A stretch of DNA of 64,000 nt, taken from the NCBI RefSeq assembly GCF_000227685.2, contig NZ_CP007029.1:2826501-2890500 (forward strand), in the 5' to 3' direction. The position numbers and the translations under genes were made by a program. The DNA is from Thioalkalivibrio paradoxus ARh 1 (GTDB taxonomy: Bacteria > Pseudomonadota > Gammaproteobacteria > Ectothiorhodospirales > Ectothiorhodospiraceae). This document shows positions 9,984-63,823 of the stretch, one piece after another; positions within the stretch are counted from its first letter, which is position 1; every line of letters begins with the position of its first letter. The notes beneath the pieces were generated by a model. That model did not search any database. It was not told the DNA's origin and was given only the letters and a program-made list of their open reading frames with translations.

Positions 9984-12056
9984 ATGTCAACGATGACTGC
10001 AGCGATCGAAATTCTGTTCGTCACCCTGGACCCGGAACGGGCCGAGCGCGTGATCAGCGGCATCCGGATGCGCGGCACTGCGGTGCGTGCGCGGCAGGCG
10101 TCGGACCGTACCGAACTGGACGAACTGCTCGCGTCCAGCCGCTTCGACACCGTCGTGCTGATCGAATCCGGGCTGGATCTGCAGCTTGAAGATATCCGCT
10201 CGGCGCTGCACCAGTCGGGAAGGCAGACGCCAGCCATCGTGATCACCTCGCGCCCGGAAACCGAGCGGCTGGCGATTTTCGACGCTGGCGCGTTCGGAGT
10301 GGTCGGCTGCGGCCAGGAAGAAGTCGCCGCGATGCTGATTCTGAAGGCGGTCGAGTACCAGTTCTGCTGCAATCAGTTACACCGAACCCGCAATACGCTG
10401 CAGGAAGCCGAACGCCGCTACCTGCTGCTGCTGGACAGTTCGCGTGACCCGATCGCCTACGTCCAGGACGGCATCTACCTGTATGCCAACGACGCCTGGC
10501 GCGAATTCTTCCAGATCGAGACACCGGAAGACCTGGCGCGGTACAGCCTCGACGACTTCATCGCCCCGGAGCAGCAGGACCTTCTGCAGCAGCTGCTCGA
10601 CTCGCGCCGCGATCAGCCGGATACGGTGGAAACCACTCAGGCGATGACCCTGCGCGACGCGCAAGGGCGATCCTTCGAGGCCCAGGTCGTGCTGACCGAC
10701 GCGACCGTCGACGGAGAGGACTGTACGGTATTGCGTGTCGCCACCGAGCGCTCCACAAGTTCGACGGGTCAATTGTCGGTCCTCGACCCGGTCACGGGAC
10801 TGTACAACCGGCGCTACCTGATTCGCTCGCTTGAGGACGCGCTGGTCACCGCCGCGCGCTCCGGGTTGCTGTTTGCACTGATCGACATCTCGATCGACGA
10901 CTTCGCGTCAATCCGCATCGAGCGCGGGCTGAGCACGTCGGACATCCTGCTCGCCGACCTGGGCGTGTTTCTCAGGGAGCGTTTTCCCGCGCCCGCCACC
11001 GTCGCCCGCCTCCGCGGCGAGGAGTTCGGCGTGCTGGTACCCAACGTGCGGCGTGCGGAACTGGAACCACAGCTCGACACGCTGATCCGCGACGCATCGG
11101 AGCGACCGGTCAACCTGGGACAGGACACAATCAAGGTCACGTTGTCCTGCGGCGTCGTGATCGCCGACAACTCGGTTCCCACCGCCGAGCACCTGCTCGC
11201 ACGCACCACCCGCGCGCTGGAACAAGCGCGCAGCGCGGGCGGAAATCGCTGCCATTTCCATCGCCCGGAGGACGGGGGACCGGCGCGTACCGAGTCCGAC
11301 CAGGCCTGGCACGCACGGATCGAGGAGGCGATGGCCAACGACCGGCTGCGGTTGCTGTACCAGCCTGTGGTCAACCTGCATGGCGCCGACGTTCCCCGTT
11401 TCAACGTGTTCGTCAGGCTGTTCGGGCCCGAAGGCCAGATCTACCAACCCAACGATTTTCTTCCCGCAGCCGAGCGTACCGGAATCGCGGCCGAACTCGA
11501 CCGATGGATCATCCGCCATGCCATCGAGGTACTCGCGCAGCGCCTGAAGCAGGATCCGAAGGCGACCTTCTTCCTGAAGCTCACGCGCGGCTCACTGAAC
11601 GACGGCTCGGTCGTCGTTTGGCTGCAGGAAGTGCTGCACCAGCACAGGGTTCCGGCGGGCAATGTGGTGGTCGAGATCAAGGAGGCGACGATCATCACCA
11701 ACCTGAAGGCGGCAATCGCCGCCGCACGCGGCCTGAAGGCGATCCACAGCTGCCTGTGCATCGACGATTTCGGCAACGGGCTCAATCCGTTCCATATCCT
11801 CCGCCACGTGGATGCCGACTACATCAAGCTCGACGGAGCCTTTGTTCGCGAACTGGTCACCGACGCAAACAACCAGCAAGCCATCCGCCGCTTCACCGAT
11901 GCGGCCCACGCCAAGGGCAAACAGGTGATCGTGCCACGGGTCGAGGACGCCGCGACACTCGCGGTCCTGTTCAGCCTGAATGTGAACCTGGTCCAGGGCT
12001 ATTTCGTGCACCCGCCCAGCGAACAGCTGGACTTCGATTTCACACAGGTTCTCTGA
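9984..12056 (+). CDS. second FimX-like c-di-GMP effector: REC-like, PAS, degenerate GGDEF and EAL
   Basis: A 690-residue paralogue of the protein at 1571-3958, with the same domain order but no long proline-rich linker. The N-terminal receiver-like part (IEILFVTLDPERAE), the PAS part and the EAL part align residue by residue with the first copy. GGDEF reads RGEEF, closer to active than in copy one, and DPVTGLYNRRYL is well kept. The EAL motif again reads FVRL; the later motif reads IDDFGNG. Phosphodiesterase activity is unlikely and cyclase activity doubtful. Start ambiguity: ATG at 9984 or 9993. It converges on dnaJ. Confidence 0.82.
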   Translation: MSTMTAAIEILFVTLDPERAERVISGIRMRGTAVRARQASDRTELDELLASSRFDTVVLIESGLDLQLEDIRSALHQSGRQTPAIVITSRPETERLAIFDAGAFGVVGCGQEEVAAMLILKAVEYQFCCNQLHRTRNTLQEAERRYLLLLDSSRDPIAYVQDGIYLYANDAWREFFQIETPEDLARYSLDDFIAPEQQDLLQQLLDSRRDQPDTVETTQAMTLRDAQGRSFEAQVVLTDATVDGEDCTVLRVATERSTSSTGQLSVLDPVTGLYNRRYLIRSLEDALVTAARSGLLFALIDISIDDFASIRIERGLSTSDILLADLGVFLRERFPAPATVARLRGEEFGVLVPNVRRAELEPQLDTLIRDASERPVNLGQDTIKVTLSCGVVIADNSVPTAEHLLARTTRALEQARSAGGNRCHFHRPEDGGPARTESDQAWHARIEEAMANDRLRLLYQPVVNLHGADVPRFNVFVRLFGPEGQIYQPNDFLPAAERTGIAAELDRWIIRHAIEVLAQRLKQDPKATFFLKLTRGSLNDGSVVVWLQEVLHQHRVPAGNVVVEIKEATIITNLKAAIAAARGLKAIHSCLCIDDFGNGLNPFHILRHVDADYIKLDGAFVRELVTDANNQQAIRRFTDAAHAKGKQVIVPRVEDAATLAVLFSLNVNLVQGYFVHPPSEQLDFDFTQVL

Positions 12057-47326: not shown

Positions 47327-47587
47327 GAGCAGACATCTCCTTGGAAGTTCGGGGGACCGTCCCGTACGCAACCCCTATGCCAGAACCTGAATATCCCCTT
47401 GTCTCAATGACCTGCACTCAACCGCCCTTGTCGGACTCGGAATTTTCTGGGTGAGATGCCCCAACCGCAGGGGCAGATCACACAGTGGCAGCCGAGCCGA
47501 TGCCGCGACGTTGCCTGGCCGACCGTCGCGGCGCATCGGCAGACGCCGTTTCCAGGCGAATCATCCCGTTCCAAATCGAACCAGCGT

Positions 47588-47682: not shown

Positions 47683-47698
47683 TGGCCTGGTGCTTGCT
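47683..47698 (+). promoter_or_regulatory. sigma-54 promoter of the flavocytochrome operon
   Basis: TGGCCTGGTGCTTGCT matches TGGCACG-N4-TTGCW at 5 of 7 and 5 of 5 positions. The invariant GG and GC are exactly ten bases apart. The implied start is near 47709, about 65 bases before the cytochrome start codon. Confidence 0.65.
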
Positions 47699-47773
47699 GC
47701 TGTTCCCAGCGGGAACCGAACGCGAGCCACATCGCTGGCTCCCCCGTCCACGACCGAACCAGGAGGAAGAACG

Positions 47774-50004: not shown

Positions 50005-51390
50005 TCAGGACGAGGCCGGATCCCGCCCGATGTTGTACTGCCGCATCTTGCGCCAGAGCGTCGTGCGGCCGATGCCGAGCGACTTGGCCGCAGCGGTCAG
50101 GTTCCATCGGCAGCGCACAATGCTTTCCTCGATGATCTGACGCTCGTGCCGCGCCAGGCTGCCATCCGCCGGCGCTGCTTCCTTGGATACAGCTGTCGGT
50201 GCAAGCGGGGTGCGCGCAGGCCGCTGGAGGGTCTCGGGAATATCGGCAACGGTGATCCGGTGCCCGCGGCAAACCGCCGCGGCCCACTCCAGCGCATTCT
50301 CCAGTTCGCGCACGTTGCCCGGGTACTCGGCATTGCACAGCACCGACATGGCCTCGTCCTCCACCGTAAACCCATCACAGCCGTCACCGGCCGGCAGGCG
50401 CTCCAGGATGCGCCGCACCAGCACCGGGATATCTTCCCTGCGCTCACGCAGCGGCGGCACCCGCAGTCGGGCGACATTCAGCCGGTAGAACAGATCCTCG
50501 CGGAACTCCTCGCGTGCAACCGCTTCTTCCAGATCCGCGTTGGTGGCCGCGATCACCCGCACGTCCACCGCCTGGGTGGTGTTGCTACCGACGCGCCGGA
50601 CCTCGCGATCCTGCAACGCGCCGAGCAGCTTCGCCTGCATGTTCGCGGGCAGCGTGCCGATCTCATCCAGGAACAGCGTGCCATTGTGAGCCTCCTCGAA
50701 CAGACCCCTGCGGGCCTGTGTCGCCCCGGTGAAAGCACCCTTCGCGTGGCCGAACAACTCGCTTTCCAACAATGGCTCGGGCAGCGCCGCGCAGTTCACC
50801 GACACGAACTGCCCGTTAGACCGTTCGCTGTGATGGTGGATGGCCTTGGCAATGCAACTTTTTCCGGTCCCGGTCTCGCCGGTGATCAGGGTGGTCAGGT
50901 GAGTCGGTGCCACCTTCTGGATCCGGGCCAGCACCTCGCGCATCGCAGGGCTATTCGCGACCAGTGCGCCCAGCCCCACACTACCGCTGGCCTCGGTCCG
51001 GAGCTGCGCCACCTCGCTGCGCAGCGAGCGCCCGTCGAGCGCCTTTTGCACCTTCAGCAGGATCTCGTCGTTCTTCGCCGGCTTGGTGATGTAATCGGTC
51101 GCACCGAGCTTCATCGCCTCGACCGCGGTGTCGATACTCCCGTATGCCGTCATCACGAGAACCTCGGTCTCGGGCATCCGGCGCTTGACCTCGCGCACGA
51201 CGTCCAGACCCGACATTCCCTCCATGCGAAGATCCGTCAACACCAGATCGGCGGGTTGTTCCTGGAATCGTTCGACCGCCTCCTCGCCGCTCGCCGCGAG
51301 GCTCACGTTGAAACCCGCCTTCGAAAGCAAGAACTCGAGCGTGCGCCGAACGCCCCGCTCGTCGTCCACGATCAGCACTCTACCCGTCAT
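50005..51390 (-). CDS. NtrC-family sigma-54-dependent response regulator
   Basis: A 461-residue activator. The receiver (residues 1-120) has VLIVDDERG, the phospho-Asp in LVLTDLRMEG and the Lys in YITKPAK. The AAA+ domain has Walker A GETGTGKS, the sigma-54 contact loop GAFTGA and LFLDEIGTL. A Fis-type helix-turn-helix (NLTAAAKSLGIGRTTLWRKMRQY) ends it. The start overlaps the sensor-kinase stop (ATGA), so the two form a pair. It is the last gene of the thiocyanate dehydrogenase run, and sigma-54 promoters occur at three places nearby. Confidence 0.95.
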   Translation of the reverse strand: MTGRVLIVDDERGVRRTLEFLLSKAGFNVSLAASGEEAVERFQEQPADLVLTDLRMEGMSGLDVVREVKRRMPETEVLVMTAYGSIDTAVEAMKLGATDYITKPAKNDEILLKVQKALDGRSLRSEVAQLRTEASGSVGLGALVANSPAMREVLARIQKVAPTHLTTLITGETGTGKSCIAKAIHHHSERSNGQFVSVNCAALPEPLLESELFGHAKGAFTGATQARRGLFEEAHNGTLFLDEIGTLPANMQAKLLGALQDREVRRVGSNTTQAVDVRVIAATNADLEEAVAREEFREDLFYRLNVARLRVPPLRERREDIPVLVRRILERLPAGDGCDGFTVEDEAMSVLCNAEYPGNVRELENALEWAAAVCRGHRITVADIPETLQRPARTPLAPTAVSKEAAPADGSLARHERQIIEESIVRCRWNLTAAAKSLGIGRTTLWRKMRQYNIGRDPASS

Positions 51391-54300
51391 CGCTCCCCTC
51401 CGTTCGGTGTCACCGGACCGCCGGTTAGCGGCAGAGAGACCGACACCCGCGTCCCCTTTCCGGGCTCGCTCTCCAGGTCCACGGTTCCGCCCCAGTTCGA
51501 AGCGATCCGGCGCACGATCACCAGTCCCAGCCCCACGCCGTCGGCCTTGGTGGTCTGAAACGGTTCAAATACCCGGTCCCGGATCTCCGGGGCGATTCCC
51601 GGTCCCGAATCCGACACCTCGAACCGCACCCTGCCCGCTTGCGAATTCACCCGCAGCGTCACCGGCCCCTTGCCATCGGTCGCTGCCGCGGCATTGTCCA
51701 TCAAGTTCGCCAGCAGCTGCTGGATCTCGGCCGCTTCGCCGTTGAGCATCGGCAAGTCGTCGGAAATCTCTTTGTGCACGACCAGTTCCGGAAAACGCAT
51801 CAGCGCGATCCTCGCGATCTGGTCGATCAACGGGCCGATTTCGAACCGTTGCTCGCGGGCGCGCGACGGGCGCGCATAATCGAGTGTATCGGACACCAGG
51901 TGGTTCAGGCGGTTGACTTCGGCTTCCATCAGTTCCAGCAATTCGCGCTGCTCGGCGGCGTCCATGCACCCTTTCTGCAAAAGCCCCAGCGCGCTGGTGA
52001 TCGCACCCAGCGGGTTGCGGATCTCGTGCGATAGCGATGCAGCCATTTCGCCCAGCGAAGCGAGACGCTCCGACTCCACCAGGGTTTCCTGGGCATTCTC
52101 GAGCGCAACATACGCCTGCTTCAGATCCCGGATCAGCGCCGCGGTCTCGATCGCCAGTGCGGCCTGCTGCGCGAACAGCATCGTCTGCTCGACGAAGTCG
52201 CGCCCCATCGTCTCCGGCTCCGACACGGGCAGGAGCATGAACCCCACCAGTCGCTCCCGGGCACTGAACGGAGACAGCAGCACCGGCGTGGACTCGAGCT
52301 CGGGCTCGAGCCCATCCAGCCCGATGTCCGCAAGCTGTCCCGCCGTCAGGCACAGCGGCGCACAGTCGCACAGCAACCGCTCGATCGTGCACTCTCCCGG
52401 CCCAACGTTCCGCTGGAAGCGCTGTGGCCAGCCCGAGGACTCGGCCCGTACCAGACACCCGTAGAGTCTGCGTGCTTCCCGTTCGAACAGACAGAGCAGT
52501 GCCGGTGAGCACTTGAGCAGGTTCATCGCTCCACGGCAGACGACCGCGAGTACCGTATCGAGATCCCGAGCCGCGACCATCGCCAGCATCGTCTCGCTGA
52601 GCCCGGTACGAAACTGCGCGGAGCACTGGCTCTCCCGAAACAGGCGCCCGTGATGGATCGCAAACGCGGCTTGGCCGGCGAGGGCACGCGCCAACGCCAC
52701 CTCGTCTCGTCCCAATCGCTGTCCGGGGCCCAGCAGCAGCGCAACGCAGCCGATCACCCGACTTTCCACCAGCAGCGGGATGTAGAGCGCCTCTCCCAGT
52801 TCACCAGCATCGATGCCGGACTGGATCAGCGTTTCCGGAAACCGCGGTGCGCCATCCGGCTGCAGCGTGATGTCGACGGTCCGCCGCTCGCGCACACACG
52901 GGGCCAGCGCCGGGTGTGCGGCCACTTGGAACACGGCACCCTGGAGCCCACTTTCATCCTGCGCCGCGTGCTCCGCCGCCACCGTCGCGAGCCTGCCGTC
53001 CTCCGAGACCAGATAGGCCAACGCCCAGCGAGCCTCGAGCACCTGGAGTTCGCGTTGCAGCAGGGTTTCCAGAATCCGGTCGAGGTCGATGCTCGAGGTC
53101 ACCTCCCTGAGGGTTTCGTACATCGCCATCAGGTGCCGGTGCCGCTTCACCAATTCTTCATGCAACCGCGCCCGTTCCAGCGCCACGGCTGCCTGATTGG
53201 CAAACACCTGCAAGCGCACCGAATCCTCGGCCACCGGAAGGTAATCGTCGCGGTAGTCGAAGCGGATGCTGCCGAGGACACGGTCGCGCCCGACCAGCGG
53301 ATGCATCAACCGCAGATTCCCACTACCCCGGTACCCATTGCCGGGTGTGGTGCCCCCGGTCTCGGGCCGCCCGAACCGGTCACGGTCTTGGTCCTGCACG
53401 ATCTCGACACCCACGACGCCCGGCAGGCGCCGGGCCGCATTCAGGATCGATTCCAGCACGGCCTGAGTGTCCAGTGACCGGCTGATGTCCTCGAGGATCG
53501 CCGCATGCGCTGCCAGCATCCGGTTGTCGTCTCGAATCCGGCGGTTGCTGTTCTCGACCGACTGCATCGCACCCAGCAGCCGCTCGTGATAAAACTCGAG
53601 TTGCCGGAACCCCTTCACGAACTCGATCGCGAGCATCACGATCAGCACCGCCACCACCCCCACGCGGACGCCGTGCCAGATCCACCAGTTCACGTCCCAC
53701 AGGCTCGAATACGGAAACATGAACTCGCTCTGGGCCAGGAGCAGCATCACCACCGCGAACACCAGGAACACCGGCTCGCGCACGCGCAGGAAATCGGCCA
53801 GCAACGCGATGCCGACCACGAGAAACAGCGCCCCGGCACCCAAGTTCATCGCGACGGCCAGCGGCGAGAACTCGCCATACACCAGCATCGCCGGCACTCG
53901 TTCGCTGAACTGCGCGGAAACGAACACAACCAGCATCGTGGCCAGGAACACGCCTGCCAGCGGCGCTACGGACCCCGGCCGGCACCAGCCGAGCCTTGCG
54001 ACCACGAGCGACAGCGCCAGCAGTGCCGCCCCCGAAACCGCCGATAAGGAATGGAACCAGACGAACAGCACCGAGCCCGGCGGCGCCGCTGCATGAGCAA
54101 GCGCGAACACCCCCATCGCGATGAATGCATACGCCATCACCGCCAGCCGCGCGTTGCGATAGCGACGAGATTCCAGGAACAGGATCACTGCGACCACCAG
54201 GGCCATGAAGCCGTAGAACAGCTCCAGCAGCAGATGGGCGCCGGTGTTGTGGTGGTGCACATCCGCGGCCACGGGCCACAGGAAGTGCTGCGCGAGCACC

Positions 54301-54419
54301 GCCAGCGGCGGCAGCAGCACGACCAGCACGGCGATCCCGAGTTGCCCGAACGGCACACCCGAGGCGAAACCGCCTACGGCGCCGGCTCTTGCGCTGATCA
54401 ACCCGCTCCCGGGCTGCAT
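51387..54419 (-). CDS. multi-GAF membrane sensor histidine kinase
   Basis: A 1010-residue kinase. Residues about 25-290 hold seven or eight transmembrane helices (a MASE-like module), then a short coiled coil and two or three GAF domains (about 310-740). The phospho-acceptor is in ASLSHEIRNPLGA (His near residue 795), followed by the ATPase boxes QQLLANLMDNAAAA, DSGPGIAPE and GVGLGLVIVRRI. The layout resembles PrsK-like kinases that pair with sigma-54 regulators. The signal is unknown; thiocyanate, copper or redox state are candidates by context. ATG at 54419 chosen over a TTG at 54440. Confidence 0.9.
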   Translation of the reverse strand: MQPGSGLISARAGAVGGFASGVPFGQLGIAVLVVLLPPLAVLAQHFLWPVAADVHHHNTGAHLLLELFYGFMALVVAVILFLESRRYRNARLAVMAYAFIAMGVFALAHAAAPPGSVLFVWFHSLSAVSGAALLALSLVVARLGWCRPGSVAPLAGVFLATMLVVFVSAQFSERVPAMLVYGEFSPLAVAMNLGAGALFLVVGIALLADFLRVREPVFLVFAVVMLLLAQSEFMFPYSSLWDVNWWIWHGVRVGVVAVLIVMLAIEFVKGFRQLEFYHERLLGAMQSVENSNRRIRDDNRMLAAHAAILEDISRSLDTQAVLESILNAARRLPGVVGVEIVQDQDRDRFGRPETGGTTPGNGYRGSGNLRLMHPLVGRDRVLGSIRFDYRDDYLPVAEDSVRLQVFANQAAVALERARLHEELVKRHRHLMAMYETLREVTSSIDLDRILETLLQRELQVLEARWALAYLVSEDGRLATVAAEHAAQDESGLQGAVFQVAAHPALAPCVRERRTVDITLQPDGAPRFPETLIQSGIDAGELGEALYIPLLVESRVIGCVALLLGPGQRLGRDEVALARALAGQAAFAIHHGRLFRESQCSAQFRTGLSETMLAMVAARDLDTVLAVVCRGAMNLLKCSPALLCLFEREARRLYGCLVRAESSGWPQRFQRNVGPGECTIERLLCDCAPLCLTAGQLADIGLDGLEPELESTPVLLSPFSARERLVGFMLLPVSEPETMGRDFVEQTMLFAQQAALAIETAALIRDLKQAYVALENAQETLVESERLASLGEMAASLSHEIRNPLGAITSALGLLQKGCMDAAEQRELLELMEAEVNRLNHLVSDTLDYARPSRAREQRFEIGPLIDQIARIALMRFPELVVHKEISDDLPMLNGEAAEIQQLLANLMDNAAAATDGKGPVTLRVNSQAGRVRFEVSDSGPGIAPEIRDRVFEPFQTTKADGVGLGLVIVRRIASNWGGTVDLESEPGKGTRVSVSLPLTGGPVTPNGGER

Positions 54420-54533
54420 CGATACCTGACCTTGTTCCAACTCGCTCCCCCGCTCGGCGGGCGCCCCGGCCCGAATTCGGGCCGGGGCTGCGCACGCACC
54501 GGCATACCGGCACGCCCGCAGCTCGCGCAGTGG

Positions 54534-55082
54534 TCACCTCGAGTCGGAGGCAACGCGCACCGGCCGCTGTATGCGTTCGAAGCGGTCCGTCGCGTCATCA
54601 TGATAGCGTAGTTCCAGCGTACCCCAGCCCGTGGGTCCGTCAACCCTGAAGCCGAACCGTTCCCGAACCGATTCGCCAGGCTCGATCGCACGTTCGTTGC
54701 GGACCGTTGCACGCACCCAGGCGCGGTCGAAGCCCAGCGTGTCCAGTGCTGCCCGCAACTCTGCGTGCTCCGCCGGTACTGGATCCTGTGCCGCGAGCGG
54801 TCCGAGGTCGCGGATGAACTCTCCATACCCCCTCGGATCCCCGCCTTCCGGGACGAGCCGGATCCCGTTGTAGAACACGTGCACCGCCCGGGTCCCATGG
54901 TTTTCCAATGTCACGGTGACGGCAAGCAGCCCCTCGGTGATCCCTTCCCCGACGAAGACTTCCTCGACCGCGTCCACCTCGAGCCCCAGCGAACCGTCGC
55001 CCTGCCCGCAACCGCCGAGCAGGGCAACCGCCAGCAGCAGTGCCCAGGCGGGCCAGCGAACACTGATGCCGCCCACCATCAT
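54534..55082 (-). CDS. small lipoprotein of the thiocyanate dehydrogenase cluster
   Basis: A 182-residue lipoprotein (lipobox LLGGC near residue 25). The mature part has an immunoglobulin-like or DUF-type beta pattern (EGLLAVTVTLENHGTRAVHVFYNGIRL, ESVRERFGFRVDGPTGWGTLELRY). I do not recognise the family. It overlaps the preceding gene (TGATG), so it is translated with the transporter genes. A 114-base gap separates it from the kinase gene. Confidence 0.7.
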   Translation of the reverse strand: MMVGGISVRWPAWALLLAVALLGGCGQGDGSLGLEVDAVEEVFVGEGITEGLLAVTVTLENHGTRAVHVFYNGIRLVPEGGDPRGYGEFIRDLGPLAAQDPVPAEHAELRAALDTLGFDRAWVRATVRNERAIEPGESVRERFGFRVDGPTGWGTLELRYHDDATDRFERIQRPVRVASDSR

Positions 55083-55777
55083 CAGTGTGGCGGCATCGGG
55101 ATGAACAACGGCGCGCCATCCCCCCCGAACCGATGCCTGCGGGCCAACGCTTCGACATCCGCGTCGGGTGGGCGGAGGTGGACATAGTACCAGTCGGTGC
55201 GCTCGACGATGTCATCCTGCGGCTCGGCTTCGGGGCTCAGGTACATCGTGTTGTCGAACCGGATGTGCATATAGCCTTCAAGCATTTCGTAGTACTCGTC
55301 ATAGCCATCCGCCTCCATCAACAGGTCGAGGTGGATGCGGTCCGACAGGTTGATGACCGAGCCCGGCACCCTGGAATTGCCGTCCTCGGCTGCCTCGACC
55401 GGGATCTGCTCCCAGCGAGGCCCCACCTGCAAGTAGCCGCGGACCGACGGAACCATGAAGTACATGTCGTGTTCCGGGTAGAGGTTCTCCATCCAGATGG
55501 TCACGCGATAGCGTCCGTCCGGGTCCATCGTGACCTCGTCGAGGTCCGCGCGCAGATGGCGCCAGGCCATCCGCTGAAGTTCTGCCATGCGTTGTTCGCG
55601 CGCTTCGACCAGGCTGGTCTGATACGCGCCAACGCCCCAGTCGAGCAATGTCAGCGAGCCGGCAACGATCGCGATCCAGAGCAGCAGCCTGCCCAGAATG
55701 CGTTTCCAGCCATACCGGCGCTTGCGTACCCGGTTGCGCGGCGGGCGCTTGCCCTCGGTCGTGGCAACGCTACCCAT
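55082..55777 (-). CDS. membrane-anchored periplasmic protein, unknown
   Basis: A 231-residue protein. A basic N-terminus (RNRVRKRRYGWKR) precedes one membrane helix (LLLWIAIVAGSLTLLDWGVGAY), and the rest is periplasmic. That part is rich in Asp, Glu, Met, His and Tyr (NLYPEHDMYFMVPSVRGYL, EADGYDEYYEMLEGYMHIRF). No family recognised. Start ATG at 55777 (GTG at 55780 possible) overlaps the ATPase stop (TGATG). It may serve the transporter next to it, possibly as a metal-site chaperone; this is inference. Confidence 0.65.
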   Translation of the reverse strand: MGSVATTEGKRPPRNRVRKRRYGWKRILGRLLLWIAIVAGSLTLLDWGVGAYQTSLVEAREQRMAELQRMAWRHLRADLDEVTMDPDGRYRVTIWMENLYPEHDMYFMVPSVRGYLQVGPRWEQIPVEAAEDGNSRVPGSVINLSDRIHLDLLMEADGYDEYYEMLEGYMHIRFDNTMYLSPEAEPQDDIVERTDWYYVHLRPPDADVEALARRHRFGGDGAPLFIPMPPH

Positions 55778-56454
55778 CACGCCGCTTCCTCGAGCGGGCG
55801 CCCGTCGTCGATCCGAATGCAGCGCCGGGTACGGTCACCGATCTCCTGATCGTGCGTGACCAGCACGATGGTGTTACCCATCGTGTTCAGTTCCTCGAAC
55901 AGATGCACGATGTCCATGCGCGACTTGCGGTCCAGGTTCCCCGTAGGCTCGTCCGCGAGGATCAGGTCGGGTTTCTTCATCAGCGTCCGGGCGATACTGA
56001 CCCGTTGCGCTTCGCCTCCGCTGAGCTCGTGCACCATGTGGTCCGCCCGCTTCCGCAATCCCACGCGTTCGAGGCACTCGAGCGCCGCCGCGCGATCACC
56101 GCGGCTGCGCGCGCTGAACGCTCGCGGCAGCATCACGTTTTCGATCGCAGTCAGCGACGGCATCAACCGGGGATCCTGAAAGACGTAGGACACTCGTCGG
56201 CGGCGGACCTCCAGCAGCTGCCGTTCGGACAGTTGGTCGATCCGCTGACCAGCGAGCCAGACCTCCCCGCTGCTTGGGTGGTCGATTCCACCCATCAGGT
56301 TCAACAGCGTCGACTTTCCCGAGCCGCTCGGCCCCATGATGGCGACGTATTCGTTACGGACGATCTCAAGGTCGACATCCTCGAGCGCGGCCACGCGCTC
56401 GTCGCCGGTCTTGTAGATCTTGGAGACGCCCTTCAGTTGTACGATCGGATCCAC
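55777..56454 (-). CDS. ABC transporter ATPase (LolD/MacB type), first
   Basis: A 225-residue ATPase: Walker A GPSGSGKS, signature LSGGEAQRVSIARTL, Walker B LILADEPTGNLD, switch His in LVTHDQ. It belongs to the MacB/LolD class that works with FtsX-type permeases. The GTG at 56454 was chosen because AGGAGG precedes it by five bases; residues upstream come from the permease frame. It follows its permease by 25 bases. Confidence 0.92.
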   Translation of the reverse strand: MDPIVQLKGVSKIYKTGDERVAALEDVDLEIVRNEYVAIMGPSGSGKSTLLNLMGGIDHPSSGEVWLAGQRIDQLSERQLLEVRRRRVSYVFQDPRLMPSLTAIENVMLPRAFSARSRGDRAAALECLERVGLRKRADHMVHELSGGEAQRVSIARTLMKKPDLILADEPTGNLDRKSRMDIVHLFEELNTMGNTIVLVTHDQEIGDRTRRCIRIDDGRPLEEAA

Positions 56455-56479
56455 GTTGACCTCCTGGATTCGCCTGGTT

Positions 56480-57694
56480 TCAGAGAGCCCGGAAGGCCTC
56501 GACGGGACGCGCCTGGCAGGCACGGAACGCTGGATAAAGCGTCGCCAGCAGGCTCGCCACCAGCGCCGACGTGACCGCAAGCGCCACGTGTTCCCACTGC
56601 CACCGGATCACCACGTCGGGCATGACCACCGGGCCCAGCAGATGCGCGATGCCCGCTCCCAGCAGGTAACCGAGCAAGCCACCGATCACGCCGATCAGCG
56701 CGGCCTCGTACATGAACAGTCGCACCAGTTGGCCGTGCGACGCCCCGAGCACCTTCAGCAGGCCGACCTCGCGGATTCGCGCATGCAGCGACCCCATGAT
56801 CATGTTGAAGACCGCCATGCAGGCGATCACGAACGCCATGACCACGAACCCGACCACGGTGGCGAACACGTTGCTGAAGATCGCCGCCTGGGCGGCGGCG
56901 ACGTCGCGCTGCGACGTGGCACGCACCCCGACCACGCCCTGGTTGATCGCGAGTTCCGCTTCACCGACCGGGCAGTAGTTGCACATCGCGCGAACATTGA
57001 TCAGCGATACCTGCCCTTCCCGGTTGAACGCCCGTTGCACTGTGGGCAAGGTGCCGAAGGCCATGTAGTCGTCCGGCGAGTTGGTTTCCTGCAGGATCCC
57101 CGCGACCCGGAACGTCTGCCCCGCGATCTCGACTTCATCACCGGCGTGGATACGCGTCGCCGACGCGAGGATCTTGCCGAGCATGATCTCGTCGTCGCGT
57201 CGCAGCAGATCGCCGACATCGACCTCCCACCAAAACTTCGCGATGTACTCGTTCCTGGGTTCGATCCCGGCAAACACGATGTCCCGCCCCTTCAGCTGCG
57301 TCTCGGCGTAGACCCTGGGCGCGAAAGTCGGCGGGTCGACCTGCTCCTGGTCGCCCATGAATCCCTCGATCAGGATTAACGCGTTGCGCGCACGCCAGCC
57401 CTCGATGATCGCCTGGTCGTAGACCTCGCGGATATGCGGAATCGCATCCTCCGGTATGTAGTGCTCGCCGCCGATCCCGAAACCCTGCAGGCTGGTCTCA
57501 TTCGTGGTCGCGGGAAGAATCGTGAGCTGGTGGCCATAGCGGTTGATGGTCTGGGTCAGATCCTGGTACCCGCCGCCACCTACGGTGATGGTCGCGATCA
57601 GCAACGCGACCGCGAGCGCGATGCCCGAAGCCGTGTAGAGCGTCCGCATCTTCCTGCGGCTCACCTCGCGCAGTGCGATCTGGATGATGTTCAT
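56480..57694 (-). CDS. FtsX-type ABC permease with periplasmic CxxC, first
   Basis: A 404-residue permease: one N-terminal helix, a large periplasmic MacB-type domain (about 45-270) and three C-terminal helices (VVGFVVMAFVIACMAVFNMIM, ALIGVIGGLLGYLLGAGI, ALAVTSALVASLLATLYPAF). The periplasmic domain holds CNYC (C238 and C241), unusual for the family and suited to copper or a disulfide. Its start overlaps the second ATPase stop (ATGA). The substrate is unknown. MacB-type transporters move proteins, lipids or small molecules in the envelope rather than importing ions. Confidence 0.88.
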   Translation of the reverse strand: MNIIQIALREVSRRKMRTLYTASGIALAVALLIATITVGGGGYQDLTQTINRYGHQLTILPATTNETSLQGFGIGGEHYIPEDAIPHIREVYDQAIIEGWRARNALILIEGFMGDQEQVDPPTFAPRVYAETQLKGRDIVFAGIEPRNEYIAKFWWEVDVGDLLRRDDEIMLGKILASATRIHAGDEVEIAGQTFRVAGILQETNSPDDYMAFGTLPTVQRAFNREGQVSLINVRAMCNYCPVGEAELAINQGVVGVRATSQRDVAAAQAAIFSNVFATVVGFVVMAFVIACMAVFNMIMGSLHARIREVGLLKVLGASHGQLVRLFMYEAALIGVIGGLLGYLLGAGIAHLLGPVVMPDVVIRWQWEHVALAVTSALVASLLATLYPAFRACQARPVEAFRAL

Positions 57695-58362
57695 AGCATT
57701 CTCCCGTCTTTCATTTTCAGGACACGATCGGCCCGCTCGGCGAGCGCGTTGTTGTGCGTGACCATCAGAAGTGAGGTGCCATCCTGGTTCAGCGTCTGCA
57801 GCAGCAGGTCCATGACTTCGGCCTCGGTCTGCTCGTCGAGGTCGCCGGTCGGCTCGTCGGCGAACAACAGCGTCGGCCGGTTGATCAGCGAACGGGCGAT
57901 TGCGACGCGCCGCTGTTGTCCGCCCGACAGCTCGCTGGGGTAGCAGTGGATCTTCTCCGTCAGCCCGACGGTGTCGAGTAGCGCCTCGGCCTGGGAATAC
58001 ACGTCGGCCGAGACGCGTTTCCTCCCGAACATTCGCGGGAGAACCACGTTGTCGAGCGCGGTCAGGGTCGGAATCAGGCTCGAAAACTGGAACACGAACC
58101 CGATACGTTCGTTGCGCAACAGCGATCGGCGCGCATCCCGTTGCCCCCACAGCGATTCATCCTCGAAATAGACGGTTCCCGAGGTCGGCCGCGTGAGCCC
58201 TCCCAGCATGCTCAGCAGGGTCGACTTGCCGCTGCCGGAGTGTCCGATCACCGCGACGAACTCACCCGGCGCGATATCGACCGAGACGGCGTGGACCGCG
58301 TGGATGCGCTGGTCCCCGATCACATAGGACTTCGACAGTTCTTCGCCACGCAACAACATCAT
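57691..58362 (-). CDS. ABC transporter ATPase (LolD/MacB type), second
   Basis: A 223-residue ATPase: Walker A GHSGSGKS, signature LSGGQQRRVAIARSL, Walker B LLFADEPTGDLD, switch His in MVTHNN. It is similar in class to the first ATPase but not a close copy. Starts and stops overlap its neighbours on both sides by four bases, so it is translationally coupled to both permeases. Confidence 0.93.
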   Translation of the reverse strand: MMLLRGEELSKSYVIGDQRIHAVHAVSVDIAPGEFVAVIGHSGSGKSTLLSMLGGLTRPTSGTVYFEDESLWGQRDARRSLLRNERIGFVFQFSSLIPTLTALDNVVLPRMFGRKRVSADVYSQAEALLDTVGLTEKIHCYPSELSGGQQRRVAIARSLINRPTLLFADEPTGDLDEQTEAEVMDLLLQTLNQDGTSLLMVTHNNALAERADRVLKMKDGRML

Positions 58363-59561
58363 TCACCTGCCCGAATCGCGTCGTAGGGTTCCAGTCGTGC
58401 GCCCGAGACCGCCGGGTAACTCGCGCCCAGCGTCGCCACCAACAGCGCCATCAGGACCGCGGCGCCGCCCATCAGCGCGATATTCTCGACCGGCGGCCAG
58501 AGGAACGGGATGTTCAGCAGTTCAAGGTGGAACCCGATCGTGCGGCTGAACATCCGTAGCAGTACCAGCCCAAGCGCGACCCCGGCCAACCCGCCCGCGG
58601 CCCCGAGCATCGCCGACTCGGTGAGCACCAGGTTGAACACCCGGCCCTTGCGCGCGCCGATCGCCCGCAGCAGACCGAGCTCGCGCCGGCGTTCATTGAT
58701 GATCGTGGAGAAGATCGCGCTGATCATCAGGATATTGCCCAAAATCAGCACGCCTGTGAGCAGCGCGGTGCCGGCGAACAGCGCGACCACGTTCTGGCGC
58801 ACGCCGGTCACCACGTTGCCGGCGGTGACCACCGAGATGTTCGGGTTTTGCGCCAGTGCGAAACGCACGTGGTCCGCATTCGCACCGCCCTCGAGCCGCA
58901 CCAGCACTGCGGAAATATCGCCCGGACCGAAACCAAGCTCGACGTCGTCGTAGTCGCGCGACGCCTCGGCCAGCGCGTAGGCGTCGGCAAGATCCAGAAA
59001 GATCGCATTGTCGGACAGGCCGATGCCGGTCCGGTCGAGCTTGCCGTACACCGTGAAGTAACGCCCGTAGTAATAAACACTCTCACCCAGCTCGAACTGG
59101 CTGGCTCCGCCGACGACCACGTCCCCGGGCTGCATCTCGCGGTTCAGATGTTCGTTGACCCAGGGCATCACGGTGAAGTCGTTCTCCCGGTCGAAACCGA
59201 CCAGGAACGCGTCACCGACGATGCAGTGCTCGGCATCGGCGGTGGTGAGAAAGAGCTGCGACGCCACGGTGTTCACGCCCTGCAGCGCGCCGACCTCCTC
59301 GGCCAGATCGGCCTGCATGTAGAAGGTCGATGGCTCGCCGGTGAGCAACGCGCGCTCCATGCCCACCATGGTGCCCCGCGGCACGACCATCAGGTCGGCC
59401 CCGAGCTTCGAGAATCCGTGGTCCACGCTGCGCTCGATGCCGTGCATCAGCGTCGCGGTGGCAAATACCGCTGCGGTCGCGATTCCAACCGCAAGCACCA
59501 GCGCGGCCGTGCGAAACGGCTTGCGAAAAAGGTTGTGTGCTGCCAGCGTAAAGAGATTCAT
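58359..59561 (-). CDS. FtsX-type ABC permease, second
   Basis: A 400-residue permease with an N-terminal helix (FRTAALVLAVGIATAAVFATATLMHG), a periplasmic domain (about 45-265) and three C-terminal helices. The segment LTGVLILGNILMISAIFSTIINERRRELGLLRAIGARKGRVF is the FtsX-family core. It pairs with the second ATPase. It is the first transporter gene after thiocyanate dehydrogenase, separated by 61 bases with a small hairpin (59587-59604). Confidence 0.92.
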   Translation of the reverse strand: MNLFTLAAHNLFRKPFRTAALVLAVGIATAAVFATATLMHGIERSVDHGFSKLGADLMVVPRGTMVGMERALLTGEPSTFYMQADLAEEVGALQGVNTVASQLFLTTADAEHCIVGDAFLVGFDRENDFTVMPWVNEHLNREMQPGDVVVGGASQFELGESVYYYGRYFTVYGKLDRTGIGLSDNAIFLDLADAYALAEASRDYDDVELGFGPGDISAVLVRLEGGANADHVRFALAQNPNISVVTAGNVVTGVRQNVVALFAGTALLTGVLILGNILMISAIFSTIINERRRELGLLRAIGARKGRVFNLVLTESAMLGAAGGLAGVALGLVLLRMFSRTIGFHLELLNIPFLWPPVENIALMGGAAVLMALLVATLGASYPAVSGARLEPYDAIRAGE

Positions 59562-59622: not shown

Positions 59623-61269
59623 TCAGGTCGTGGTGGAGCGGCTGATCCGCAGGTCCTCCAGCGTGCGGGGCACGATCACGTTGTCGTGGTGCCCCATCGG
59701 GCTGGGCAGGAAGCCGAGGACCTCGTCGGTCTCGGTTTCCATGACCACGATCGCGGACGCCGTGTTCTGGTAACCGGAAAGCGTGCCGACGACGAACTTG
59801 CCGTCGTAGGTAATCGCCAGTGTATGCATGTCGGGGCCGAGGTCGACCTCCTTCAGCACTTCCCAGTTGACCGCGTCGATCACAGCGATCCCGTTCGGGG
59901 TCGGCGACGGCCACCACATCGTGACGTAGATCTTCTTCGCGTCCGGCGTGAACACCATGTGGAAGGTGTTCGGGTAGGCGCCGCGCCAATCGGGGCTCTC
60001 GACGACCGCCTTCTTCTCCCAGGTCGTGGGGTCGTCGTGGTTGGAGCTGTCCCAGACCATGATGTTGTTCTGGCGCAGGCTGTTCATGAACAGGAAGCTC
60101 TGGCCGTCGGGCGAGAAGCCCGCCTGGTGCCCGGCACTGATCACCTCGGGAATGTCCACGGTCCAGGTGTCGTCATCGACCTTGACCAGCTGGAACTGCG
60201 AAGGCGTGCCCTTCGGCCCGGCGAGGACCGCCACCGGCACCTGGTTCTCGCGGTCGAACACGACGCAGACACCAGGCAGACGCATCGACGCGACCGCCCA
60301 CTTGCCGCGCGGGTCGAACACCAGCGCATCGTTCGCAACGGAGTGCAGCGGACGATCGCCCGAAACCTTGCCGTCCTCGATCGCGAGCTCGCCGCCAGGG
60401 ACGAGTTCCCAGTCGATCTTGTTGCCCTTGGAGCCCTGCAGGTCGTAGCGACCGCCGGGCAGCGTCGGCTTCAGGCGTTTGATGGTCATGGTGCCGCCGT
60501 CGAGCCAGGCGCGCTTCAGGTCCTTGACGTTCGGATCCCAGTCGAAGGCCCAGGCGTATCGGACCATATCGGTCTCGCGATCGAACTCGGCGCAGATGTC
60601 CTTCTGCCCGTCGCCCACTGCATAACCGTCGGCTTCGGGGGTGATCGTCACGTGCACACCCAGCCCCAGACCGCTGACCTCGGCGGCATCGCGCTGCAGG
60701 TTCATGCGCGTCCCGTCGTACTTGATGCGGTAGATCTTCATGCCCTCGCCCGGGTCTTCCACCGTGACCGGCACACCGTAGATGAACAGGTTCTTGCCGC
60801 CCTGGGTGTTCACCACGAACTCGAACTCCTTGTAGGGGTCCGGGGACGGGAAAGCCGCCATGTGGTGCATGATCGGGCAGGTGTCGCCGTAGTTCCACGC
60901 GGCCAACCAGGCCATCGTCCAGCCGGTGCTGAGGTCAGTGGCAGCGACCGTGCCGGAGAACTTGCCCGGGGCAACCAGGACGTACTTGCCGAGCTGGTCG
61001 TAGAAGTCCTGGACCTTGACGTACTTGCTGCCGCTGCGGCCGAAGATCTGCGCCTGGGCGTCCTGGGTCACCAGACCACGGACGCTCTCGGGCATGAACG
61101 GGGCGGCGGCGGTGGCAGCGAACGCGGCGCCAGTGCCGATCCCGACGGTCTTCAGAAACTTGCGCCGGGACTCCGATGCCCCCGTGTCCTCCACGCTACC
61201 TTCGGCGGTCTCCGCGGCGATGTTTGGCTCGGACAGATCCTTGCCATCGATATGGTCGGAATTGCTCAT
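59623..61269 (-). CDS. tcDH: thiocyanate dehydrogenase, trinuclear copper enzyme
   Basis: A 548-residue periplasmic enzyme that oxidises thiocyanate to cyanate and elemental sulfur with release of two electrons. The Tat signal is SRRKFLKTVGIGTGAAFAAT. The rest is a seven-bladed propeller related to N2O reductase but without its C-terminal CuA domain. With the start at 61269 the copper ligands and active-site residues I recall from the T. paradoxus structure fall exactly in place: K103, H135, H206, E288, D314, H381, H437, H482, H528. GGAGGAG precedes this ATG. It heads the operon, 110 bases below a sigma-54 promoter. Confidence 0.97.
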   Translation of the reverse strand: MSNSDHIDGKDLSEPNIAAETAEGSVEDTGASESRRKFLKTVGIGTGAAFAATAAAPFMPESVRGLVTQDAQAQIFGRSGSKYVKVQDFYDQLGKYVLVAPGKFSGTVAATDLSTGWTMAWLAAWNYGDTCPIMHHMAAFPSPDPYKEFEFVVNTQGGKNLFIYGVPVTVEDPGEGMKIYRIKYDGTRMNLQRDAAEVSGLGLGVHVTITPEADGYAVGDGQKDICAEFDRETDMVRYAWAFDWDPNVKDLKRAWLDGGTMTIKRLKPTLPGGRYDLQGSKGNKIDWELVPGGELAIEDGKVSGDRPLHSVANDALVFDPRGKWAVASMRLPGVCVVFDRENQVPVAVLAGPKGTPSQFQLVKVDDDTWTVDIPEVISAGHQAGFSPDGQSFLFMNSLRQNNIMVWDSSNHDDPTTWEKKAVVESPDWRGAYPNTFHMVFTPDAKKIYVTMWWPSPTPNGIAVIDAVNWEVLKEVDLGPDMHTLAITYDGKFVVGTLSGYQNTASAIVVMETETDEVLGFLPSPMGHHDNVIVPRTLEDLRISRSTTT

Positions 61270-61377
61270 TACAGACTCCTCCAAGTAGGTGATGTGCTAC
61301 CGAAAAGCACTGGCGGCCGTTTCGCATTCCGGGCAATCGGCGGCCAGCAGACCGCGTTCGTCGCGGTGACCAGGGCG

Positions 61378-61394
61378 TAGCGAGATCCGTGCCA
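61378..61394 (-). promoter_or_regulatory. sigma-54 promoter of thiocyanate dehydrogenase
   Basis: On the minus strand TGGCACGGATCTCGCTA matches TGGCACG-N4-TTGCW with a perfect -24 block and one mismatch in the -12 block. GG and GC are ten bases apart. The implied transcript start is near 61368, about 100 bases before the start codon. Confidence 0.78.
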
Positions 61395-61459
61395 GCACAG
61401 CTGCGGCGCGGCGTGGGGCGGAATTTCCGGAGCTACCCGGCGTCGGCGCGTTCCACCCT

Positions 61460-61520
61460 GAAACAGCCTGTTCCGTTCCGGTCCGGTGAAACGCCTTTTC
61501 GCGCAACGCCGGAACCGAAC
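61460..61520. promoter_or_regulatory. candidate activator-binding repeats between the two sigma-54 promoters
   Basis: GAAACAGCCTGTTCC at 61460-61474 is a near-palindrome, and it overlaps the left arm of a 12-base inverted repeat (61470-61481 with 61509-61520). The first lies 65-80 bases from the tcDH promoter and 85-100 from the copC promoter, distances usual for NtrC-type upstream sites. Confidence 0.45.
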
Positions 61521-61559
61521 CCGCGGGCCCCACGGCAAAGAACAAGGGGCGCAGCGGTC

Positions 61560-61576
61560 CGGCACGCTTTTCGCAT
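61560..61576 (+). promoter_or_regulatory. sigma-54 promoter of copC-copD
   Basis: CGGCACGCTTTTCGCAT matches TGGCACG-N4-TTGCWT with two T-to-C changes. The GG and GC are exactly ten bases apart. The implied start is near 61587, giving a leader of about 115 bases. Confidence 0.68.
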
Positions 61577-61700: not shown

Positions 61701-62183
61701 ATGTACGCAACCAAACCAGGACTTGCGCGCCTGGCACCCGCAGTACTGGCCGCAGCGGTTTTCGTCGCGACACCCGGCACGGCCGACGCACACGCACACC
61801 TGCGCGCGGCCGACCCGCCCGAGGCGATCGTCGATGCCGCCGGACTCCGGGAAATCCGCCTGGTCTTCAGCGAGCCCGTGGTGGATCGCTTCAGCACGTT
61901 CCGGGCGTTCCGCCTGAGCCTTCCCGAGAACGGCATCCGCAATCTGACCCAGCTCAATACTCTCGCCTCGGAGCTGGGGGTCGACACCGAGGAGAGCGCC
62001 CACCACGAAGTCGAACTGGAGAGCGACCTTTCCTCGCAGTCGGCCGAGGTCACCCTGCATAGCGATGAACCGCTGCCCGCGGGGGCCTACGCGGTGGTCT
62101 GGCGGGTGCTTTCCGTGGACGGGCACACGACCACCGGCTTTCATGCCTTCGTGCACGCGGGTGGGACCGCCTCGAGCCACTGA
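61701..62183 (+). CDS. copC: periplasmic copper-binding protein CopC
   Basis: A 160-residue exported protein. After the signal peptide (PAVLAAAVFVATPGTADA) the mature chain begins HAHL, supplying the N-terminal His of the Cu(II) brace. SVDGHTTTGFHAFVH carries the C-terminal Asp and His ligands. GGAGG precedes the ATG at 61701. CopC with CopD generally moves copper from periplasm to cytoplasm or to copper enzymes; next to a three-copper enzyme, supply to tcDH is likely. Confidence 0.95.
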   Translation: MYATKPGLARLAPAVLAAAVFVATPGTADAHAHLRAADPPEAIVDAAGLREIRLVFSEPVVDRFSTFRAFRLSLPENGIRNLTQLNTLASELGVDTEESAHHEVELESDLSSQSAEVTLHSDEPLPAGAYAVVWRVLSVDGHTTTGFHAFVHAGGTASSH

Positions 62184-62186
62184 CCC

Positions 62187-63356
62187 GTGGAGTTCTTCTG
62201 GACGACCCTGGTGCTTGCGGGACTCGTGTTCCTGCTGGCACCGGGGTTTGTGCGCTACGCAATCCTTCCGCCCGCTGCACCGGACCCGGTCATTGGCGGC
62301 CGCCGGCTGTTGCCCTGGGCCGGCGTCGCGATGCTCGCGGCGGGCACCGTGGGCGACGTGCTGCAGGTGGTCTGGACTGCGCTCGGCACGCTCGACCCGG
62401 AGATGACATCGGCCTATTTCACCGAAACCCGGCACGGCCGGATCAGCCTGGGCCGCCTGGGGTTGCTGGCCGCGTTCCTCGCTGCATGGCAGCTCCTGCC
62501 ACGGCGTGCTAGCGCGGTCAGCCACGCGTTTCTCGGCGCTGGCCTGGTGCTGAGCGTCAGCCTCACCAGCCACGCCGCCGGCGACGGCCAGCACCTGCTG
62601 GTGGCAGCCGACGCGGTCCATCTCGCGGCGGTCGCTGCGTGGGTCGGGACCGTGGTCTGCCTGGCACTGATGCCCGTATGGAGTCGGAAGCCAGTACCTG
62701 CGTGGCTGCCGGAGGCCATGCGCCGGACGTCGGCCGTCGGCCTGGTCGCGGTCGTCGCGGTCCTGGTCACGGGAACGTATGGGATCTGGTCCCACTTCTG
62801 GAGCCCGGCGCAGGTGCTGGGCACTCCCTATGGCCAGGCGCTGCTGTTGAAGCTGCTCCTGGTCGCGCTGATCCTCGGGATCGCCGCACTCAACCGCTGG
62901 GCACTGGTTCCGGAGGCTGCGCGCACTGGCACAGCGACTCGGCTCGGCTGGTCTGTCCGCGTCGAGGCGGGATTGCTGATCCTGGCGCTGGTCGCCGCCG
63001 GCTACTACGTGACGCGGTCGCCGCCAGGGGAGCCGTCGTCGCTACTCGATCCCGTGGAACTGGCGGAGCAGCTCGGACCCTATCGAATCGACGCGGCCTT
63101 TGTTCCGGCCGACCCGGGCTTTCGCCTGCAGCTGGAGGTCACCGACCTGGAAGCCGTGCCGCTGGCCACAGACCCTGGCGTGCACCTGGTCCTGGACATG
63201 ACGGACCATCGCATGGTGCCGTTGCGCCCCGCGGTGGAACGGATCGGTCCCGGCCAGTACCGCGCCCGTGACGTGTTCACAATGCCTGGCCGCTGGCAGG
63301 CCCGGTTGCAGGTCGGCGACGAAACCATGCTGTTGTTCCTGGATGCGCGGCCGTGA
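62187..63356 (+). CDS. copD: CopD-type copper transport membrane protein with extra C-terminal domain
   Basis: A 389-residue inner-membrane protein with about eight helices (residues 1-290) and conserved His in SHAAGDGQHLLVAADAVHLAAVAAWVG, typical of CopD/YcnJ. Residues about 300-389 form a periplasmic YtkA/FixH-like beta domain (DAAFVPADPGFRLQLEVTDLE, HLVLDMTDHRMVPL, GQYRARDVFTMPGRWQARLQV), with Met and His that could bind copper. The GTG start lies three bases after the copC stop, so copCD is an operon. Confidence 0.93.
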   Translation: MEFFWTTLVLAGLVFLLAPGFVRYAILPPAAPDPVIGGRRLLPWAGVAMLAAGTVGDVLQVVWTALGTLDPEMTSAYFTETRHGRISLGRLGLLAAFLAAWQLLPRRASAVSHAFLGAGLVLSVSLTSHAAGDGQHLLVAADAVHLAAVAAWVGTVVCLALMPVWSRKPVPAWLPEAMRRTSAVGLVAVVAVLVTGTYGIWSHFWSPAQVLGTPYGQALLLKLLLVALILGIAALNRWALVPEAARTGTATRLGWSVRVEAGLLILALVAAGYYVTRSPPGEPSSLLDPVELAEQLGPYRIDAAFVPADPGFRLQLEVTDLEAVPLATDPGVHLVLDMTDHRMVPLRPAVERIGPGQYRARDVFTMPGRWQARLQVGDETMLLFLDARP

Positions 63357-63559: not shown

Positions 63560-63823
63560 ATGGGAATCGGCGGTATCAGCATCTGGCAACTGGCCATCAT
63601 CCTCGCGATCGTGGTGCTGCTGTTCGGCACCAAGAAGCTGCGCAACGTCGGCGGCGATCTGGGCAGCGCTCTGCGGAACTTCCGCAAGTCGGTGAAGGAA
63701 CAGGAAGACGGCCCGGACTCCCTGGCCACCGAGCAGGAAACGAAAGGCGACGACGCTGCACGCCCGGTGGTCCTCGCCCAAGCCGGTGCCGATGCGCCGG
63801 GCCGGGCTGGCGATCGTCCCTGA
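63560..63823 (+). CDS. tatA: Tat translocase subunit TatA/TatE
   Basis: An 87-residue single-helix protein: [34 protein letters not shown], the TatA N-terminal helix, FGTKKL hinge and amphipathic helix. The acidic tail is disordered. No tatB or tatC follows in the window. It sits beside two Tat substrates (tcDH and the FccB-like flavoprotein), so it may boost export of this cluster. It lies 203 bases after copD. Confidence 0.95.

Follow-up and report, generated by a model that had tools for sequence, protein, structure and literature searches.

A predicted bidirectional sigma-54 control region between the thiocyanate dehydrogenase and copCD genes of Thioalkalivibrio paradoxus ARh 1

The 434-nt gap between the thiocyanate dehydrogenase gene (tcDH) and copC in Thioalkalivibrio paradoxus ARh 1 is very probably a bidirectional sigma-54 control region, in which two outward-facing promoters would share one enhancer of the NtrC-type activator EBP1. 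The elements of this region keep a conserved geometry among the Thioalkalivibrio genomes that carry tcDH, the dyad, the sigma-54 site and EBP1 are paired across genomes, and the genome encodes sigma-54 itself (one match to PF04552, E 9e-67). All positions below refer to the window, the whole 64,000-nucleotide stretch that was analysed. The earlier note on this DNA had predicted joint sigma-54 control of tcDH and copCD; conservation and the distribution of EBP1-linked sites lend support to that prediction, and the present analysis adds to it a putative activator site common to the two promoters and a predicted promoter before fccAB.

The tcDH-copC gap and its gene cluster

tcDH is located on the minus strand (59623–61269, ATG at 61269). 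It was named by homology to the gene of Thioalkalivibrio thiocyanoxidans ARh2 and from the papers; no family was matched in the Pfam search. tcDH is followed on the same strand by a MacB/FtsX-like ABC permease gene (58359–59561), by genes for an ABC ATPase, a permease and a second ATPase (55777–58362, named after the available text of PMC5328954) and by two accessory genes of 232 and 182 aa (54534–55780). As the earlier note had pointed out, the run also contains a kinase and an NtrC-type activator; both are on the same strand, at its end. The sensor histidine kinase (51387–54440) contains MASE3, GAF, HisKA and HATPase domains. EBP1 (50005–51390) exceeds the cut-offs for PF00072, PF00158 and PF02954, corresponding to a receiver, a sigma-54 interaction AAA+ domain with GAFTGA, and a Fis-type HTH. 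On the other side of the gap, copC (61701–62183), copD (62187–63356) and the 87-aa tatA (63560–63823, named after the same text) are all on the plus strand. This gene order fits the account of Tv. paradoxus ARh 1 and of Tv. nitratireducens ALEN 2 in the available part of PMC5328954, and the related genome G379, used below for comparison, is presumably that of ALEN 2. The ARh2 cluster is like that of the window; its genes are orthologous, and according to the accessible text of PMC5744179 both tcDH and copCD are induced on thiocyanate, with RNA-seq logFC values of 7.5 for tcDH, 4.7 for copC and 4.0 for copD.

Putative sigma-54 sites were scored against TGGCACG-N4-TTGCW, which has 12 informative positions. 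The predicted promoter toward tcDH (61379–61394, minus strand) reads TGGCACG-GATC-TCGCT (TGGCACGGATCTCGCT) and scores 11/12; the one toward copCD-tatA (61560–61575, plus strand) reads CGGCACG-CTTT-TCGCA (CGGCACGCTTTTCGCA) and scores 10/12. Direct inspection agreed with the earlier note: in both sequences the GG and GC doublets are separated by exactly ten bases, and the sites are oriented away from each other, one towards tcDH and the other towards copCD. Transcription would be expected to start at ∼61369 for tcDH and at ∼61586 for copC, leaving leaders of ∼100 and ∼115 nt, respectively. All six tcDH- and copC-facing sites of the three Thioalkalivibrio genomes have TCGC in place of the consensus TTGC, and the first base of the copC-facing site is C or A, not T. 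The scan for sigma-70 promoters was uninformative, since none was found and 0.6 was expected. A single IHF-like match with up to two mismatches to the consensus was found, at 61294 on the minus strand, outside the stretch between the promoters.

Between the two promoters lies a putative shared activator site (61450–61474). It is composed of the dyad GTTCC-ACCCT-GAAAC (61450–61464) and, one helical turn on, of a third half-site GTTCC (61470–61474); the three half-sites follow each other at intervals of 10 bp. The distances from the dyad to the tcDH and copC promoters are 55 and 95 nt, respectively, in the window and in G379, and 56 and 94 nt in ARh2. With this upstream position and its co-distribution with EBP1, described below, the dyad is a candidate enhancer.

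Could both sites be chance matches to the consensus in a GC-rich gap? Loose matches do occur at the chance rate: allowing up to three mismatches, there are 105 matches in the window against 105.5 expected. With the GG/GC core required, the two strands of the 64 kb contain 12 sites of at least 10/12, three of them 11/12, and the tcDH/copC pair represents two of the 12. From this density, each strand of the 434-nt gap would be expected to hold ∼0.04 outward-facing sites; the pair is unlikely yet not decisive, because many gaps had been scanned for the earlier note. Genome-wide (one contig, 3,756,729 bases), 44 sites have at most one mismatch, as compared to 43 for the backwards control; the sigma-54 consensus alone has zero predictive power in this genome. 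Owing to these chance-level numbers, consensus counting in the window and the genome was discarded as evidence, and the decision therefore needed comparison with other genomes, which raises the predicted promoter pair above chance.

Co-occurrence of the sites with EBP1 across genomes

Matches to tcDH were found in three of the 47 family genomes, namely that of the window, G379 and ARh2 (G404, the same contig as locus L002). EBP1 (E ≤ 1e-115) is present in exactly these three. Conservation in other tcDH-bearing genomes was one of the two refuting tests named in the earlier note; in oriented alignments, both sigma-54 elements are kept in G379 and ARh2, in the same geometry. The tcDH-facing site is identical in G379 and reads TGGCATGAATTTCGCT in ARh2, and the copC-facing site is identical in G379 and reads AGGCACGCTTTTCGCA in ARh2. 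Changes in the tcDH-facing site are either within the N4 spacer or from TGGCAC to TGGCAT. Between the window and ARh2, 261 of the 434 intergenic positions agree (206/367 outside the elements), and the agreement is 13/16 and 15/16 inside the tcDH- and copC-facing sites and 13/15 inside the dyad. The only 16-base windows of the gap that are fully identical begin at 61561–61564, at the copC-facing site. The tcDH-facing site is unexceptional by conservation alone, because 24% of all 16-base windows in this gap share at least 13/16 positions with ARh2; further blocks of 15/16 are found close to the tcDH leader, in windows starting at 61306–61308 and 61344–61353. Conservation by itself does not single the putative elements out.

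We then scored 57 of 60 tcDH-related contig loci, leaving out L015, L057 and L059 as short or partial, for a sense-strand sigma-54 site of at least 10/12 within 380 nt before tcDH. Such a site is present in all five contig loci with EBP1 and in none of the 52 loci without it, where the best score is 9. The five EBP1 loci do not represent five independent events, because they are related by descent and fall into ∼3 lineages; the absence of EBP1 from the controls, many of which are short contigs, is for that reason absence from the fetched stretch only. Within a single locus, the sites stand out only slightly: at the five EBP1 contig loci, randomly drawn stretches from the same locus equal the sigma-54 site in 0.9–5.8% of draws and the dyad in 2.2–13.7% of draws.

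Four betaproteobacterial loci (L003, L004, L005 and L007) contain tcDH, the ABC genes, the accessory genes, the kinase and EBP1 (52–54% identical) in the same order; copC had no match in any of them. Each has two dyads of 9/10 or 10/10 at a distance of 19–20 bp from each other, followed downstream by a sigma-54 site of the TTGC type. The exact dyads are those of L004 and L005, located 108–141 nt before the sigma-54 site, and the dyads of L003 and L007 reach 9/10 only. In L166 (G583:C13), a locus from relatives of the L003 genome, we observed a sigma-54 site of 11/12 and two weaker dyads (8/10, counted by hand) before tcDH; the tcDH frame contains one in-frame TAG in this assembly. The Thioploca locus L006 has the same ABC genes, and neither a sigma-54 site nor a good dyad precedes its tcDH; a search of the whole Thioploca genome revealed no close relative of EBP1, the best activator (38%) being on a contig other than that of tcDH. 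The best activator in the whole genome of one Reyranella (L018) has 40% identity and is located away from tcDH. Among L008–L061, 54 tcDH-related loci from Reyranella, Melainabacteria and others, 49 match the MacB-like permease in the fetched stretch, and none of the 54 matches EBP1, the kinase or copC there at E ≤ 1e-10.

The dyad motif, RTTYC-N5-GRAAY, was defined from the Thioalkalivibrio and beta loci. Five gammaproteobacterial loci with a distant tcDH (32–37%, tblastn) were fetched after it had been fixed. Four of them contain the kinase and EBP1 (42–53% identical) upstream of tcDH; L163 has neither, and no exact dyad was found in it. The four EBP1-bearing gamma loci have 15 exact dyads; a sigma-54 site adjoins 13 of them according to the script and 12 according to manual reading. 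In L162, the GC is missing from the best site before tcDH, which has TTGAT. The same locus contains a divergent sigma-54 pair around one dyad, between an Alginate_exp (porin-like) gene and two CusB/HlyD-like genes, the latter followed by genes for an AcrB-family pump, the kinase and EBP1. Downstream of tcDH in L159, the frame at 11092–11409 resembles the tcDH C-terminus and has its own dyads and a sigma-54 site of 11/12; it is apparently what remains of a second tcDH copy, duplicated together with its promoter, and may be compared with the 52-residue fragment reported for Guyparkeria in the available text of PMC6504805.

Counted over all 11 EBP1-bearing loci (221,564 bases), 20 of the 26 exact dyads adjoin a sigma-54 site, whereas none of the five exact dyads does so in the 56 control loci (902,206 bases). 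Among the linked dyads, those at L002 20595 and L162 16650 look fortuitous, and another two, in L159, are part of the tcDH remnant. Only a spacer of 5 is enriched, with 26 dyads as compared to 0–7 for spacers 0–4 and 6–12. The true half-site is also the best among 60 letter permutations, with 20 linked dyads; the next values are 8, 8 and 4, all from near-identical half-sites. Taken together with the 5/5 versus 0/52 distribution of sites before tcDH, these counts make chance matching unlikely, and the retained sites and spacing and the dependence of the distribution on the activator point the same way; we consider chance a very improbable origin of the two sites.

Another explanation is that the dyad serves as the operator of a different regulator, for example one responding to copper or redox state, and lies beside sigma-54 promoters that are activated from elsewhere. 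Recognition of the dyad by EBP1 is deduced from their co-occurrence, and further activators exist, including the stand-alone EBP2 beside the cluster (see below). However, among the 11 EBP1-bearing and 56 control loci, the exact dyads linked to a sigma-54 site were found only where EBP1 orthologs are encoded, and they lie at enhancer-like distances. The EBP1 proteins themselves argue against it as well: outside Thioalkalivibrio they are only ∼42–54% identical to that of the window, and still GRTTLWRK is present in the HTH region at all 11 loci. A different regulator is thus improbable in our judgement, and EBP1 remains the favoured ligand of the dyad. GAFTGA occurs in seven of the 11 EBP1 proteins, including that of the window; the four gamma ones have GSFTGA, which counts against the proposed control, as does the missing GC before tcDH in L162.

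It could also be that only the tcDH-facing site works as a sigma-54 promoter; copCD would then use another one, such as a copper-responsive sigma-70 promoter, and the copC-facing element would be an operator or decayed. The lower score of the copC-facing site and the smaller rise of copCD than of tcDH in ARh2 (PMC5744179, available text) are in line with this. The four beta loci gave no match to copC, so that the copC arm could be followed in just three related genomes. Against it, no part of the gap is better conserved than that of the copC-facing site, which faces copC and keeps a distance of 94–95 nt to the dyad in each of the three genomes; it also has a parallel in the divergent pair around one dyad in L162. 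We regard this alternative as unlikely and favour two working promoters around a common EBP1 site.

Further units with the same arrangement

A third putative sigma-54 site is located before the genes for a cytochrome c and fccAB (47683–47698, plus strand; TGGCCTGGTGCTTGCT, 10/12), and G379 has TGGCCTGGCCCTTGCT at the same place. Upstream of it, two 9/10 dyads, 20 bp apart, constitute a putative activator site (47548–47582), which is also found in G379. In ARh2, where fccAB is located elsewhere in the cluster, a sigma-54 site of 12/12 precedes fcc, and an exact dyad lies ∼420 bp upstream, further from the promoter than at the other units. A separate exact dyad (GTTCCCAGCGGGAAC, 47702–47716) overlaps the expected fccAB start near 47708 and is kept in G379 as GTTCCCGGCGGGAAC; it may serve repression or autoregulation, or be fortuitous. 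We tentatively list a weak sigma-54-like site before a TonB receptor gene (47367–47382, minus strand), which scores 9/12 here and also 9/12 in G379.

Behind marC, ∼940 bases past the end of the window, we found the gene of a second sigma-54 activator, EBP2 (L148:1437-2393 = G000:C1:2891437-2892393). EBP2 has 318 aa, no receiver, and 41% identity to EBP1. It is associated with the dyad GTTTCACAACGAAAC and, 74 nt further on, with the sigma-54 site GGGCACGTCGTTTGCT (11/12); the pair in G379, GTTTCACAACGGAAC and CGGCACGTCGCTTGCA, is likewise 74 nt apart. The gene of a DsbD_2-type membrane protein (L148:3085-3783) follows ∼700 bases after EBP2, and is also present in G379.

The exact dyad alone is common, occurring at 86 places in the genome of the window. 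Among the 37 of these that were read with their flanks, four have a linked sigma-54 site, namely tcDH/copC, EBP2, L183 and L199. L183 was rejected as a target with its dyad at the 3′ end of a 487-aa frame, and L199 with its dyad inside a 734-aa frame. These 37 exact places thus offered no convincing target outside the cluster. The pattern of three half-sites has four exact places in the whole genome, two of which are the tcDH/copC and fcc regions; it was given no weight, because it had been written after both regions were seen.

Proposed control, known systems and meaning

NtrC/NtrB-type systems comprise a receiver-AAA-Fis activator, a dyad enhancer tens to ∼150 bp upstream, and a -24/-12 promoter. 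The system in the window resembles them in its receiver-AAA-Fis activator, upstream dyad and predicted -24/-12 promoters; it differs in the dyad, RTTYC-N5-GRAAY, and in its targets, thiocyanate oxidation and copper supply. Divergent sigma-54 promoters with one common enhancer are a known architecture. Co-regulation of the orp operons of Desulfovibrio vulgaris was reportedly the subject of a 2011 paper in J Bacteriol. The orp1/orp2 operons are the nearest relative in design (PMC3897727, available text), and by sequence the tcDH-copC gap resembles them in that an activator-type dyad lies between two predicted sigma-54 promoters facing outward; the orp operons consist of other genes in another phylum, and they require IHF, which has two functional sites between the promoters, according to the same text. 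The Thiohalobacter/Guyparkeria TcDH region is described in the accessible part of PMC6504805 with a sigma-54 activator, a histidine kinase-like protein and a Cus-type copper system near tcDH; different from the window, it misses copCD, and L159–L162 resemble this type.

The earlier note had known of no description of this control. That stands in part only: a GAFTGA sigma-54 activator was already presumed to regulate the ARh2 operon, and the joint rise of tcDH and copCD was reported, in the available text of PMC5744179. The same text describes neither a promoter nor an activator site, and the word 'promoter' is absent from the text available for PMC5744179, PMC5328954, PMC6504805 and PMC6934394. 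GTTTC and GAAAC are likewise absent from the available text, motif figures apart, of the sigma-54 regulon papers PMC4641369 and PMC6615313. In the open-licence literature, no title or abstract opening among the matches listed describes these promoters. Sigma-54 control has thus already been proposed, and the cis elements, promoters as well as activator site, appear undescribed. New here are the genes, the enhancer motif and its reach across beta- and gammaproteobacteria.

We infer the following course of events. On a signal that accompanies thiocyanate, the sensor kinase would phosphorylate EBP1, which would bind the central dyad at 61450–61474. EBP1 would then loop to either side, and its ATPase would open sigma-54 polymerase at both promoters, so that transcription from the predicted starts would depend on sigma-54 in vivo. 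The minus-strand promoter would drive an operon reaching from tcDH through the ABC genes to the kinase and the activator themselves, forming a positive feedback, and the plus-strand promoter would drive copCD-tatA. A second copy of the dyad/sigma-54 arrangement would drive cytochrome-fccAB. In ARh2, the logFC on thiocyanate is 5.8 and 6.9 for fcc and ∼2 for the activator (PMC5744179, available text); the kinase and the activator rise less than tcDH, as would be expected with a promoter of their own or with attenuation.

In the literature covered here, as far as its text was available, the control of thiocyanate oxidation has consisted of gene-level induction and a presumed activator. With named promoters, an enhancer and a predicted geometry, the suspected control becomes directly testable. 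A thiocyanate-responsive enhancer could serve as a biosensor part, and the sequence signature may help to recognise functional TcDH systems in metagenomes from wastewater and soda lakes. For the organism itself, the shared control region offers an explanation for the joint rise of the copper enzyme and its copper supply. Going further, we lean towards the reading that one kinase-activator pair and one 15-bp enhancer constitute a dedicated thiocyanate regulon across beta- and gammaproteobacteria, which would drive tcDH together with copper, electron-acceptor or porin genes recruited by each lineage (copCD and fccAB in Thioalkalivibrio, CusB-like and porin-like genes elsewhere). The trio of tcDH, EBP1 and dyad plus sigma-54 site would then mark dedicated thiocyanate oxidisers, as opposed to the tcDH-like genes of Reyranella, Melainabacteria and others, where the trio was not found, and in the genome of the window and in G379 a cascade would be added by EBP2, which has a dyad and a sigma-54 site to itself.
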